Virus record (IMG/VR): IMGVR_UViG_3300027911_000001
Coordinates: 64,001 to 128,000 of that record
From: a virus
DNA: 64,000 nucleotides
Strand: one strand, 5' to 3'
The translations under genes and the position numbers were made by a program. The stretch's first letter is position 1. Every line of letters starts with the position of its first letter. Of this stretch, positions 10,327 through 53,472 are shown one piece after another. A model generated the notes under the pieces. It saw only the letters and a list, made by a program, of their open reading frames with translations. It had not been told where the DNA came from and searched no databases.

Positions 10327-10581
10327 ATGATTGAAGATCTTGGTAGATTCAACAAAACTGTTAAGGAATATATACAATCTCTCTTTTTAGCAAGAGACGA
10401 AGAGGGTCGTAAAAAAATCCTTGATATTTCCGATGCCAATAAGGTTCCATGTATTATAGTGGCCTATTGGTGCGGTGAAGTATCGGGCTATCCAGACTAT
10501 TTAAAGAAGTCGGTTGATTCGCTGATGAAGTTTTACGACTACAAAGAAATTAAAGGTAAAAGCGAAGGGTGCCCATGGTAA
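10327..10581 (+). CDS. small protein, unknown
   Basis: 84 residues, start supported by AAGG 9 nt upstream. Helical N-terminus (RFNKTVKEYIQSLFLARDEEGRKKIL) followed by VPCIIVAYWCGEVSGYPDYLKKSVDSLMKFYDY. It overlaps the HAD gene by 7 nt, suggesting coupled translation. No family recognised. Confidence 0.6.
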   Translation: MIEDLGRFNKTVKEYIQSLFLARDEEGRKKILDISDANKVPCIIVAYWCGEVSGYPDYLKKSVDSLMKFYDYKEIKGKSEGCPW

Positions 10582-10985
10582 ACGCATGTTTTTTAGATTT
10601 TGATGGAGTTGTCATTGTTAACGGAGTCTTCTCTAAGGCTGCCGTATTCAATTTAAATAGTCTTCTTGAAAAAGAACCAGAACTTAAAATCGTCATATCT
10701 TCTTCTTGGCGCCACAAAGGACTTGAGTTTTGCAAGATTCTTTTAGAAGAAAACGGGATTGACTCTGATAAAGTAATTGGGATGACTGATGCTAAACTTT
10801 CCGAAGAAGGCCGTGGAGGACATATCGAAAGATATCTTTATTCTCACGATGTTGACAAATTTGTCATCCTAGATGATCAAGGACCTAAAGATATGGATAA
10901 TATCTCTTCTTATCTAGTTAAAACTAATCCCTTTGTTGGGCTTACTGCGTCCGATGTGGCTAAAGCCATAAAAATCCTAAAGTAA
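10575..10985 (+). CDS. HAD-domain protein, Swiss Army Knife RNA-repair type
   Basis: About 136 residues from ATG 10575 (in-frame GTG 10569 is the alternative). D8-F-D10-GVV is HAD motif I, ISSSWRHKG is motif II, and FVILDDQG is motif IV. The SSSWR form is characteristic of HAD domains attached to RNA-repair proteins, also found as stand-alone phage proteins. A polynucleotide phosphatase role is possible. It is the last gene before the structured RNA block and ends 2 nt before an inverted repeat. Confidence 0.75.
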   Translation: MVNACFLDFDGVVIVNGVFSKAAVFNLNSLLEKEPELKIVISSSWRHKGLEFCKILLEENGIDSDKVIGMTDAKLSEEGRGGHIERYLYSHDVDKFVILDDQGPKDMDNISSYLVKTNPFVGLTASDVAKAIKILK

Positions 10986-11037: not shown

Positions 11038-11253
11038 AAATGGCAGGTCAGACGCGACTCTGACTAATTGACTATTGTGCAGTCTCTTACCCTGCACTCA
11101 TACCTGAGTGAGCGACTCAGGGCATAATTAGGTCAATTGTGTTGGATTGCTCACCATTCACGTACGCATCTAGTGGCTATTTCGTTTACCCAAGTCTGTT
11201 CTGCCGACCTCATAAAGGGACTGCATCGCCACGGCTTACATACTGCTGCCAAA
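11038..11253 (-). ncRNA. structured RNA unit A of a tandem array
   Basis: No plausible gene occupies this block. On the minus strand the unit opens with TGGCAG (11251-11246) and closes with CTGCCA (11046-11041), a 6-bp terminal helix. Directly abutting its 3' strand is GTCAG/CTGAC (11047-11064), a 5-bp hairpin with an 8-nt loop. Next to that, AATTGAC/GTCAATT (11066-11072 with 11132-11138) encloses two perfect hairpins, 11077-11097 (6 bp, 9-nt loop) and 11103-11121 (7 bp, 5-nt loop), a three-way junction. Strand is inferred from the abutting promoter. No known RNA family recognised. Confidence 0.65.
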
Positions 11254-11268
11254 CTCTTTATATCATAA
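11254..11268 (-). promoter_or_regulatory. TATGATATA promoter of RNA unit A
   Basis: Minus strand TTATGATATAAAGAG. The TATGATATA box ends exactly 7 nt before TGGCAG, the first helix strand of unit A. Confidence 0.6.
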
Positions 11269-11453
11269 ATGGGCAGGCCAGTCACTACTCTGGCTATGAG
11301 AAGGTTAACCCACGACCTCTCAGGGATGCCTAGGCAGGCTTATTTGAATGGTCCCTATATGTCTCCAGTGGCGGTTTATGGGGACTACCCCGATTATTAG
11401 TAGACCTCTATAGATCGATACCGTTACCCACAGCTTTCCATATCGCTGCCAAA
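11267..11453 (-). ncRNA. structured RNA unit B of a tandem array
   Basis: Minus-strand unit homologous in layout to unit A. The terminal helix is GGCAG/CTGCC (11250-type position 11446-11450 with 11272-11276). Abutting it is GCCAG/CTGGC (11277-11294), again 5 bp with an 8-nt loop. Further internal hairpins are 11298-11321 (7 bp with one bulged A), 11322-11356 (AGGGA/TCCCT enclosing GCCT/AGGC) and GGGG/CCCC around 11380-11391. The unit has little primary sequence in common with A outside the ends, but its ends align base for base. Confidence 0.63.
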
Positions 11454-11454
11454 T

Positions 11455-11468
11455 CCATTATATCACAA
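11455..11468 (-). promoter_or_regulatory. TGTGATATA promoter of RNA unit B
   Basis: Minus strand TTGTGATATAATGG. The box ends 7 nt before TGGCAG of unit B and begins about 4 nt after the terminal helix of unit C. Confidence 0.58.
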
Positions 11469-11471
11469 TTT

Positions 11472-11648
11472 AATTGGCGGGTTGGATTGTTTACCAACAC
11501 TGAATTCCCTACGTTTCTCCATGGCTTCCATAGGGTTCAAACTAGCTTGTCCCAGTTCACAAGATAAAAGCCGTCAAAAATATATGGGCCATACTTCTAG
11601 CTGTCAACCCACATAAGTCACGCGTACCGTTCCCGCGCAGCCGCCAAA
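11472..11648 (-). ncRNA. structured RNA unit C of a tandem array
   Basis: First unit in the direction of transcription. The terminal helix TTGGCGG/CCGCCAA is 7 bp (5' strand near 11647-11641, 3' strand 11480-11474). Abutting it is GTTGG/CCAAC (11481-11498), 5 bp with an 8-nt loop. Internal hairpins: CCCTA/TAGGG (11507-11535) and CTTGT/ACAAG (11546-11563). Compared with A and B the terminal helix carries a compensatory A-T to G-C change, which supports pairing. Confidence 0.63.
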
Positions 11649-11663
11649 CCTTATATATCACAA
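11649..11663 (-). promoter_or_regulatory. TGTGATATA promoter of RNA unit C
   Basis: Minus strand TTGTGATATATAAGG. It overlaps the stop codon of the lipoprotein gene (TGA, 11660-11658) and ends 7 nt before TGGCGG of unit C. Confidence 0.6.
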
Positions 11664-12993: not shown

Positions 12994-13485
12994 TCACCAT
13001 TTATGGCTAAGTTCAAAAATAAGAAAATCTCTACCATGGTTAGGTGAACAAAAGCTAGCGCAAGAGATATGTTCATACTGGAATCCAGCGCCATCTCCCT
13101 TTTTATCCCTAACCCCTAAATAAAGTTCCCCATTGAATTGGGGAAAAGAACTTCCAAGCTGCGTGTCTGGAGTACTAATGGCAGCTAAACTCCATCCGCT
13201 TCTTACTTCTACAGGATCCAGACTTATCTCTACCCCTGGACCGCTAGAAACCCAAAATCCAGCTTTTCTAGTTAAGTCAGACGATCCTTCGCCCCAGTAG
13301 CCACCCTTATATTGCCAATATATGCCTGACCATAAAGTGGAGCGATACCCTAACTCGAAATATTTGTTTTGGCCAAGAAAGCTATCTGCATCGTGAAATA
13401 TACCTAATCCATATCCCAAGAAAGCCTCTTCTCCATAAGATAAGTTACTTAAAAAGATAGATAGTGTTAATAACAGTATTCTCAT
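12994..13485 (-). CDS. PagL-like lipid A deacylase / outer-membrane beta barrel
   Basis: 163 residues with signal peptide MRILLLTLSIFLSNLSYGEE, alternating beta-strand pattern and a terminal aromatic (W163) as in outer-membrane barrels. H139-x-S141 followed by D153 reproduces the PagL catalytic spacing (His, +2 Ser, +12 acidic; the usual Glu is Asp here), and SPNHGRDF matches the PNxG loop. PagL enzymes remove an acyl chain from lipid A. Length agrees with PagL (about 150 mature). Inferred to alter the host outer membrane. The catalytic claim rests on motif spacing only. Confidence 0.62.
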   Translation of the reverse strand: MRILLLTLSIFLSNLSYGEEAFLGYGLGIFHDADSFLGQNKYFELGYRSTLWSGIYWQYKGGYWGEGSSDLTRKAGFWVSSGPGVEISLDPVEVRSGWSLAAISTPDTQLGSSFPQFNGELYLGVRDKKGDGAGFQYEHISCASFCSPNHGRDFLIFELSHKW

Positions 13486-51522: not shown

Positions 51523-52404
51523 TTACTCTCCAGCGTTTTCTAGATATTCTTTAGCTATCTTAACTTCTTCCCTAAGCTCAGGGTTATTCCAGTTCTTATC
51601 AAAGAATTCCTTAACAATCTTAACTTTGGTCTTTTTAGACGATTTTTTAAAGAGCCATTCTTCTGTATTTGTCTCTTTATAATCCAAGAACTGTTCTGGG
51701 TTTAGGCTCCAGATATTGTTACTCGGATCCATATCGCTATTAGTTATATCATTAGTTGAAAGAGCCTTCTTCCTGATAGGCACGCAAACGTACCATTTCT
51801 TTTTATATCTATAAACTGGGCCTTCTTGATTTTTAAAATTCTTCTTAACGGTCTTAAATACCCCAGAATTCAAAGGATGGTAATCATAAGCTGAATGATT
51901 CTCTAAGAGATCCTCGATATCCAAAGGGGGCTGTTTTGTACCTGTGAATACCAAAAACTCTTCGGCTACTAAGCCCTTTATGTTTTTGGCCTTTTGTTTA
52001 CATACCCTAACAAGGTCTTGAAGTCGTTGTTTCAAAAAACATGTAAAGTCGGCTTTATTTTTATTTAAAATATCTTCTTTTTCACATTTTCTTTGATTTA
52101 ACTTTTTGAATAATTTCTTGAACTTAGCAAGCTTTTTGGCTTTTCTTTCTAAAGCAAAAAGTCCAATATAGGTAGCCAAATAGATCTTAGAGGTGCTCAT
52201 TACATCTTCCCAATCTAATCCTACCATAATGAACAGACTTTTGTAAACATTAAAAGTGCTAGTTGCAAAGTTTTCTATGATAGCATTGTATGGGTCCATT
52301 TCGCTTCTAGTAGCTACATGGGTTATACTTTTTAGATATTTGTGCCTTAAGTAGCACAGCTCAAAGGATTCCTTATAAAAAATCCTTTTTTCTTTAGTTT
52401 CCAT
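51523..52404 (-). CDS. helical basic protein; candidate late sigma factor
   Basis: 293 residues, no family firmly recognised. About 40-95 (NAIIENFATSTFNVYKSLFIMVGLDWEDVMSTSKIYLATYIGLFALERKAK) resembles sigma region 2 in hydrophobic pattern and position of the DxED turn. It is followed by Lys-rich helices and a C-terminal helical part. Since the structural genes use promoters lacking a -35 box, a dedicated late sigma factor is expected, and this is the best candidate in the window. Inference only. Confidence 0.35.
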   Translation of the reverse strand: METKEKRIFYKESFELCYLRHKYLKSITHVATRSEMDPYNAIIENFATSTFNVYKSLFIMVGLDWEDVMSTSKIYLATYIGLFALERKAKKLAKFKKLFKKLNQRKCEKEDILNKNKADFTCFLKQRLQDLVRVCKQKAKNIKGLVAEEFLVFTGTKQPPLDIEDLLENHSAYDYHPLNSGVFKTVKKNFKNQEGPVYRYKKKWYVCVPIRKKALSTNDITNSDMDPSNNIWSLNPEQFLDYKETNTEEWLFKKSSKKTKVKIVKEFFDKNWNNPELREEVKIAKEYLENAGE

Positions 52405-52422
52405 TGATTATCCCTTTGATGC

Positions 52423-53472
52423 TTACTTATTATCCAGTTTACGAACTTCTTCTAAAATTGCCTTGGCTAGCTTAGGATCGTCTTTGATAGCTAAGGCTGC
52501 TTCCTTTTTACCATTAAATTTCTTATCTTCAAACTGATAGGTCCTATTGTTTTCAGTTTTAAGAACGCCTAAATTTTTTGCAAGCCAGAAGATCTCTTCA
52601 TGTTGGTTAATGATGCCTTGATCGTAACTCAACGTGAATACGCCAGCTCTACCAGCTTGTCCGATAGATGATTGTTCCATCTTAACAAAAACTTTGTGTC
52701 CATTAAGAAGCTTATTGCCCCTGGCGTCTTTCATATCTTCTTCTTCAAATGTCTTACCTTCGATATCTTGTTTATCTTCTGCGGCACCTGCACGCTTCAA
52801 GGATATGTAGTATTCAAAAGCATGCTTTGTATACCAAGAAGCGCTCATCTTTTCTTTAGGACCGTAGCTTCCGGCATCTAAATTGGCAGCCATTTGAGCC
52901 GTCCCGATCAAAAGAATTTTATTCTTTTTACAAAATGGAATAAGCTTACCTAAGCCATTTTTTAGGGTTAGAGCTTGATCCCCCATTAAGTGATTGGCTA
53001 CAGAATCGGTATCTCCCCTTTTGATCCCCATAATACCGTTTAAAGAGTCTATAGCGATCATGCGAAGCGGCATTCCATCCTGTACCATAGTCTTTATGTC
53101 GCCTTCGACCCTATCAAAAATTTCTGTAGCTTGATTTGTGTCGTAAATGATAGATCTTTCTTGATCTATTCCAGGAATAGCCTGATGTTGGAGCTGGCCT
53201 CTCATTTCGGTATTGAAATAGATTGAAATTCCTTCTTTGTCTCTGGCTTGCATTTCTTTAATTAAGGCATAGATAGAAAGCGACTTTCCAGCTTTGGGCT
53301 CAGAAAAGAAAAGGATAGAAGAATTCTTAGGAATCCCATTTGCTTTATTCGCAAATATCCAGTCAAAATATGGGCTTGGGGTATATAGACAGTTCTCCGG
53401 AGCGAAACTATCGTATTCGTAATCCACTGCGTCATCATATGCTTTAAGTTGTTTAAGCCACTTGTTTCCCAT
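52423..53472 (-). CDS. RecA/UvsX-like recombinase
   Basis: 349 residues. Walker A SEPKAGKSL (57-65), Walker B MIAIDSLNG with D142, and GTAQMAANLDAGSYGPKEKMSASWYTKHAFEYYISLKR in the loop L1/L2 zone, as in T4 UvsX and RecA. Forms filaments on ssDNA for strand exchange and recombination-dependent replication. Lies next to the ssDNA-binding protein gene, a usual pairing. The C-terminus is shorter than in RecA. Confidence 0.85.
   Translation of the reverse strand: MGNKWLKQLKAYDDAVDYEYDSFAPENCLYTPSPYFDWIFANKANGIPKNSSILFFSEPKAGKSLSIYALIKEMQARDKEGISIYFNTEMRGQLQHQAIPGIDQERSIIYDTNQATEIFDRVEGDIKTMVQDGMPLRMIAIDSLNGIMGIKRGDTDSVANHLMGDQALTLKNGLGKLIPFCKKNKILLIGTAQMAANLDAGSYGPKEKMSASWYTKHAFEYYISLKRAGAAEDKQDIEGKTFEEEDMKDARGNKLLNGHKVFVKMEQSSIGQAGRAGVFTLSYDQGIINQHEEIFWLAKNLGVLKTENNRTYQFEDKKFNGKKEAALAIKDDPKLAKAILEEVRKLDNK

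Follow-up and report, generated by a model that had tools for sequence, protein, structure and literature searches.

The large phage T4 encodes two non-coding RNAs, C and D (species 1 and 2 RNA), which lie head to tail on one strand, 6 nt apart and beside tRNA genes, and have no assigned function. The packaging RNA (pRNA) of phi29, 174 nt in length, belongs to small podoviruses, and the GOLLD and ROOL RNAs, which are much larger than the units described below, are linked to phages. These two ornate large RNAs are structured non-coding RNAs whose cellular role is not established (PMC12286853). Here we describe a head-to-tail arrangement of three units, U1, U2 and U3, that share one strand of an uncultivated virus record 164,830 nt in length; bases 64001-128000 of the record (64,000 nt) are hereafter called the window. 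By comparison with other phages, at least U2 and U3 are members of a family of folded phage RNAs that had not been described before.

Organisation of the array

The block at positions 11038-11663 of the window carries the three units on its minus strand, each closed by a terminal helix (P1) and so delimited to 174 (U1), 183 (U2) and 213 nt (U3). Every unit is preceded by a TRTGATATA-type box that ends exactly 7 nt before the sequence TGGC(G/A)G, and the inter-unit gaps, of 21 and 17 nt, contain the box of the next unit. The original prediction of a tandem array of three minus-strand units with this spacing was confirmed in its coordinates and boxes; its description of the block as gene-free also held, as no credible ORF was found in 11038-11663 and the sole ORF (64 aa, antisense, 11139-11333) was judged mechanical. 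The genome (164,830 nt) contains approximately 30 boxes of this kind, in most cases 17-90 nt ahead of a gene, so that about 0.06 would be expected by chance per strand of 626 nt, versus the three present (Poisson probability about 3e-5).

U1 (11474-11647, minus strand) follows the extended -10-like box TGTGATATA (11654-11662, minus strand), and its P1 pairs TTGGCGG (11647-11641) with CCGCCAA (11480-11474); the last hairpin is formed by GTTGG (11498-11494), the loop TAAACAAT and CCAAC (11485-11481). U2 (11270-11452, minus strand) is preceded by the box TGTGATATA(AT) at 11459-11467 on the same strand, with TATAAT at 11462-11457 and TG one base upstream. Its P1, TTGGCAG/CTGCCCA (11452-11446/11276-11270, six of seven positions paired), is accompanied by P2 (ATATG, 11443-11439, with CATAT, 11361-11357), P3 (GTGG, 11431-11428, with CCAC, 11371-11368) and P4 (GCCAG, 11294-11290, with CTGGC, 11281-11277, and loop AGTAGTGA), and the conserved internal-loop strand GAAAGCT (11432-11438) faces the partner strand TGGAGA (11367-11362). 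U3 (11040-11252, minus strand) has the box TATGATATA (11259-11267, minus strand), a P1 of TTGGCAG/CTGCCAT (11252-11246/11046-11040), also with six of seven positions paired, P2 at 11243-11237/11168-11162, P3 formed by GTGGC (11232-11228) and GCCAC (11177-11173), and P4 formed by GTCAG (11064-11060) and CTGAC (11051-11047) with the loop AGTCGCGT. A descriptor search located in all three units a 5-bp hairpin with an 8-nt loop abutting the 3' strand of the terminal helix, a feature absent from the original description.

Single-sequence folding gave z-scores of -2.1, -0.1 and -2.6 against shuffled sequences for the three units, which by itself is weak evidence for the RNAs of the array; since these values are only moderately better than those of shuffles, the case for structure was made by comparison.

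Among the neighbouring genes, one encoding a HAD_SAK_2 phosphatase-like protein, named after RNA-repair proteins, converges on the array (10569-10985), and a gene for a PagL-like lipid A deacylase is located at 12994-13485. No relatives of the flanking 193-aa protein of the window were found.

Homologous RNAs and their conserved structure

Twenty-one relatives were collected through one conserved protein, the closest cultivated relative by the DnaE-like polymerase being Myxococcus phage Mx1 (34% identity). Searching the block against the whole records of the relatives returned three recurrent short, weak matches, corresponding to the 5' core of U2, its 3' partner and the last hairpin, and inspection of these sites in the relatives revealed full homologous RNAs. 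The conserved core derived from the weak matches, GGCGUGGAAAGCUGUGG...CCACUGGAGACACGC, was found in 20 IMG/VR contigs and in one MAG contig among 84,980 genomes; the latter is very probably a phage because it carries a portal-like protein and a ThyX very similar to that of the window. A looser, core-only pattern yielded nine further loci, at which 62 of 63 P1 positions pair though P1 is not part of the pattern. In all, the collection comprises no fewer than 49 units, spread over about 38 contigs of uncultivated phages. An initial pattern (box plus TTTGGCRG) had produced 15 matches in IMG/VR with no recognisable homologue. Every searched relative of at least 150 kb gives a match, one of them marginal (G005, E 0.1), and the complete-looking unit-bearing records are 150-177 kb in length. 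No family unit was found in Mx1 or T4, nor did the covariance model match the whole T4 genome at E<=1. The distant relative Mx1 (OR576727.2, L044:1-796) has an annotated TROVE (Ro-like) protein and several tRNAs; a relationship of the units to the Y RNA/Ro system was considered and dropped, there being no TROVE gene in the source genome.

The family members are about 130-240 nt long and share four helices, which were supported in 25 units and then in 39. P1 is exactly 7 bp long, with Watson-Crick pairs in 33-40 of 40 units at positions inside the helix and in 14 of 40 just outside it, and its sequence varies freely across the family yet always pairs. A linker of 2 nt separates P1 from P2, and P4 abuts P1 with a spacer of 0 nt (each in 38 of 39 units). 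The arm comprising P2 and P3 contains a purine-rich internal loop, with the strands GAAAGCU (25/39) and UGGAGA (28/39), while P4 is a 5-bp hairpin whose loop is AGU(A/C)GCGN in most units and 8 nt long in 35 of 39. Two hypervariable insertions, 19-69 and 30-126 nt long, contain additional hairpins that are not conserved. In a subfamily (L078, L118, L108:500-737 and L114:729-920) the second of these regions is itself conserved, GAGAAGACAATACTCGG...CGAGGGTAATC...TTGAACCTCAGTA, and may form a pseudoknot.

In the alignment of 39 units, 98.0% of helix cells are paired, and two-sided changes occupy 178 cells versus 43.2 +/- 6.3 in shuffled alignments, a test that is inflated by related sequences. 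Pairing falls to 24-53% in slid-partner controls, and two-sided changes were observed in all seven pairs of P1 and all four pairs of P3. This alignment favours structure because it was fitted to the model; a MAFFT alignment made without the sequences of this genome gave the same picture of covariation. The family represented by U2 and U3 is thus almost certainly a real family of structured RNAs.

Membership of the individual units was assessed with a covariance model, R2, built only from other phages and containing no sequence of this genome. R2 recovered U2 with 79.2 bits (E 7.9e-16) and U3 with 29.1 bits (E 1.4e-4), the next-best match in the window having an E-value of 2.8, and a fourth copy, outside the array at genome position 146-364, scored 95.5 bits (E 2e-19); all of these E-values come from a short calibration and are rough. 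With the model R1, which includes U3, this unit scored 79.7 bits. P1, P2 and P3 with their internal loop, and P4 are present in both units, U2 being a clear member also in the alignment and U3 a member with a diverged core. The held-out model thus placed U2 and U3 among the RNAs of other phages, and on this comparative evidence the two are structured RNAs. The claim that all three units form one RNA family stands for U2 and U3. U1 reached only 7.3 bits with R1 and 6.2 bits with the held-out R2; its match, the best in its own stretch, ends exactly at 11647 and 11474. It keeps the promoter, the 7-bp P1 and the 5-bp P4 hairpin and lacks the P2/P3 core, and is regarded as a candidate diverged or degenerate copy.

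Transcription signals, genomic context and possible role

Across 40 units, -10-like hexamers are enriched upstream of P1, with z-scores of 6.5 at 4-9 nt, 3.3 at 0-3 nt and no more than 1.4 further away; the best -10 element is located 4-9 nt before P1 in 24 of them, compared with 11.5 +/- 2.7 in shuffled sequences. Some of them, for instance that of L110, are accompanied by a consensus TTGACA at 17 nt. The T-run after P1 averages 3.5 nt versus 2.1 +/- 0.15, and T-runs are weak in the source genome. With -10 elements at the RNA start and T-runs following the RNA, each unit looks like a transcription unit of its own. For most units these signals support a dedicated -10 element about 6 nt before P1, a T-run after it, and a primary transcript that would begin and end near P1. 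Independent transcription of the units is likely; the separate initiation anticipated in the original prediction is supported and separate termination is probable, both being predictions from sequence. The proposed late expression does not follow from the promoter sequence, as the TRTGATATA box is spread over the genome and is found upstream of many non-structural genes as well as the structural ones. Its presence ahead of many kinds of genes, sometimes with a TTGACA -35 element, suggests a general extended -10 promoter.

The units sit between mostly unrelated genes, often close to them and on the same strand, and in several phages only 5-20 nt separate a unit from the stop codon before it, with the next gene starting just beyond the unit. 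This placement is compatible, too, with a cis-acting element or one transcribed together with its neighbour, for instance an intergenic leader that folds into a riboswitch-like or terminator/processing structure for the gene downstream: many units fill the space from a stop codon to the ribosome-binding site that follows on that strand, the combination of P1 and a subsequent T-run is reminiscent of an intrinsic terminator, and the junction between a UvsX-like recombinase gene and the following gene is occupied by a unit in three relatives, a fourth having a unit upstream of the same downstream gene. However, in the source genome the same two genes are 18 nt apart (window 52404-52423) with no unit between them, which indicates that units are gained and lost, and head-to-tail arrays with their own -10 element at the RNA start would be unusual for leaders. 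The otherwise mostly unrelated downstream genes, and the convergent orientation of the gene next downstream of the array in the window, favour action in trans over action in cis, the latter being decidedly unlikely.

The presence or absence of a unit at the same junction in related phages could also reflect the spread of a selfish or mobile RNA element, or of a ribozyme, between intergenic sites, and the tandem copies and the P1 sequences sometimes shared by copies within one genome fit this idea. Nevertheless, P1 differs between most copies, unlike a fixed terminal repeat, genes for a transposase or endonuclease are not consistently present beside the units, and no match to known ribozymes was found in Rfam, making such an element very unlikely. 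In one related phage, a site comparable to that of the array holds eight tRNA genes on the minus strand (L006:3097-4029); the same conserved gene is situated about 6-7 kb downstream of this cluster and of the array.

The two hypervariable insertions in a constant frame would be expected of small antisense RNAs in which a conserved frame presents variable target-recognition arms. This is a very improbable explanation, since the variable parts are themselves structured and their longest matches in the phage's own genome, the only one searched, are 12-14 nt, against shuffled means of 12.4-12.8.

The best explanation of the locus, to which we assign a probability of about one half, is that it consists of tandem RNA genes, with U2 and U3 in the new family, whose products are stable, trans-acting, protein-binding RNAs. 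Being flush-ended and compact, these RNAs would be stable; their conserved internal loop and P4 loop would bind a protein of the host or the phage, so that they act in trans as a decoy or as the scaffold of a ribonucleoprotein, and the variable arms would provide copy-specific features. The mechanism itself is put forward tentatively, and a constant P1 length is not in itself a sign of protein binding.

Comparison with tRNA and other described RNAs

The 7-bp closing stem, the 2-nt linker, the 5-bp last arm and the absence of a spacer reproduce the acceptor/T-arm layout of tRNA (RF00005), and P4 placed flush on P1 builds a stack of 7+5 bp, of the same dimensions as the stacked acceptor stem and T-arm of a tRNA. 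Unlike tRNAs, the family members have an 8-nt loop without the T-loop consensus, no anticodon arm and no encoded CCA, are about 2-3 times longer, and are not recognised by ARAGORN or the Rfam tRNA models. For lack of a T-loop, CCA and anticodon arm, assignment of the units to tRNA was rejected, although they may still work like a tRNA mimic. ARAGORN identified no tRNA or tmRNA gene in the window; a permissive run for intron-containing tRNAs or tmRNAs returned noise with only unidentified tags, and the combination of a tRNA-like domain and a tag-peptide frame typical of tmRNA was not found in the units.

The variable part of one unit (L090:1501-1703) holds a tRNA-like D-arm/T-arm piece (GGAGTAGCTCAG...GTGGGTTCGAGTCCCAC) and that of another (L103:1501-1659, GGGGTTCAAATCCC) holds the T-arm GGGGUUCAAAUCCC, which suggests recombination with tRNA genes. 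The 7/2/5/0 geometry and these fragments make tRNA mimicry a natural hypothesis, and a specific version of the trans-acting explanation is a tRNA-derived decoy that imitates the top half of tRNA and occupies a host factor directed at tRNA, for example a defence nuclease that cleaves tRNAs or an enzyme that binds them. The layout is kept in 38 of 39 units, and a true tRNA gene (L111:474-545, an Rfam tRNA match separate from the unit) is found 48 nt upstream of one unit. With a P4 loop that is not a T-loop and no CCA, however, the resemblance may be only geometric, and we consider the decoy unlikely. It is rather doubtful that a widespread class of phage RNAs copies the acceptor/T-arm dimensions and captures a host or phage protein via its fixed purine-rich loop; if true, the capture RNA could be a counter-defence decoy with hypervariable arms diversifying in an arms race. 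The tRNA-like geometry makes mimicry of tRNA-binding sites a concrete and testable hypothesis.

The Rfam search of the array region proposed in the original prediction was extended to the whole window and found no family (of 4227, Rfam 15) at or above the gathering threshold; at E<=10 the block had only a chance match of 10.7 bits, and in the relatives all matches were outside the units. The view that no described RNA class underlies the array is consistent with the absence of Rfam, tRNA and tmRNA matches in the window. The block had no match among approximately 50,000 named phage genomes by blastn, a check insensitive to diverged members, nor did the DNA of the source genome match named phages. 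Searches of plasmids, including Bdellovibrio plasmid pBdHM1, found no unit, and literature searches found no description of the family.

The phi29 pRNA resembles the family in being phage-encoded, closed by a terminal helix and of similar length, while GOLLD and ROOL share with it the character of structured non-coding RNAs without an established cellular role. A structural or packaging RNA of the virion, like pRNA or the RNA cages of the GOLLD/ROOL type, would account for the presence of units in every related phage of at least 150 kb, one only marginally, for the stable compact fold, and for the use of the same box by the array and the structural genes of the source phage. In contrast to pRNA and GOLLD/ROOL, the units have no Rfam match; they differ from pRNA further in occurring in complete-looking records of 150-177 kb and in lacking interlocking-loop complementarity, as loop-loop complementarity among the four copies is limited to short chance stretches. 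Copy number and location also vary, and other copies have sigma-70-like promoters, so that a virion RNA is highly improbable.

In sequence and architecture the U2/U3 family has no counterpart among the Rfam families, named phages and papers searched. Having no such match, it represents an unexplored part of phage biology; its model can be used for annotation, and the invariant internal loop and hairpin loop provide a defined target in the search for a binding partner. RNAs C and D of T4 differ from the family in their lengths of 139 and 119 nt and in having no conserved core, and RNA C carries a true T-arm, which the family lacks; with filters off, their best score against the covariance model was 6.7 bits, from a stretch of 20 nt, which does not indicate homology. 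The broader kind to which they belong, phage-encoded stable RNAs without an assigned role, nevertheless has precedents in these two RNAs, and a stricter reader could regard the family as a new member of that loose kind.
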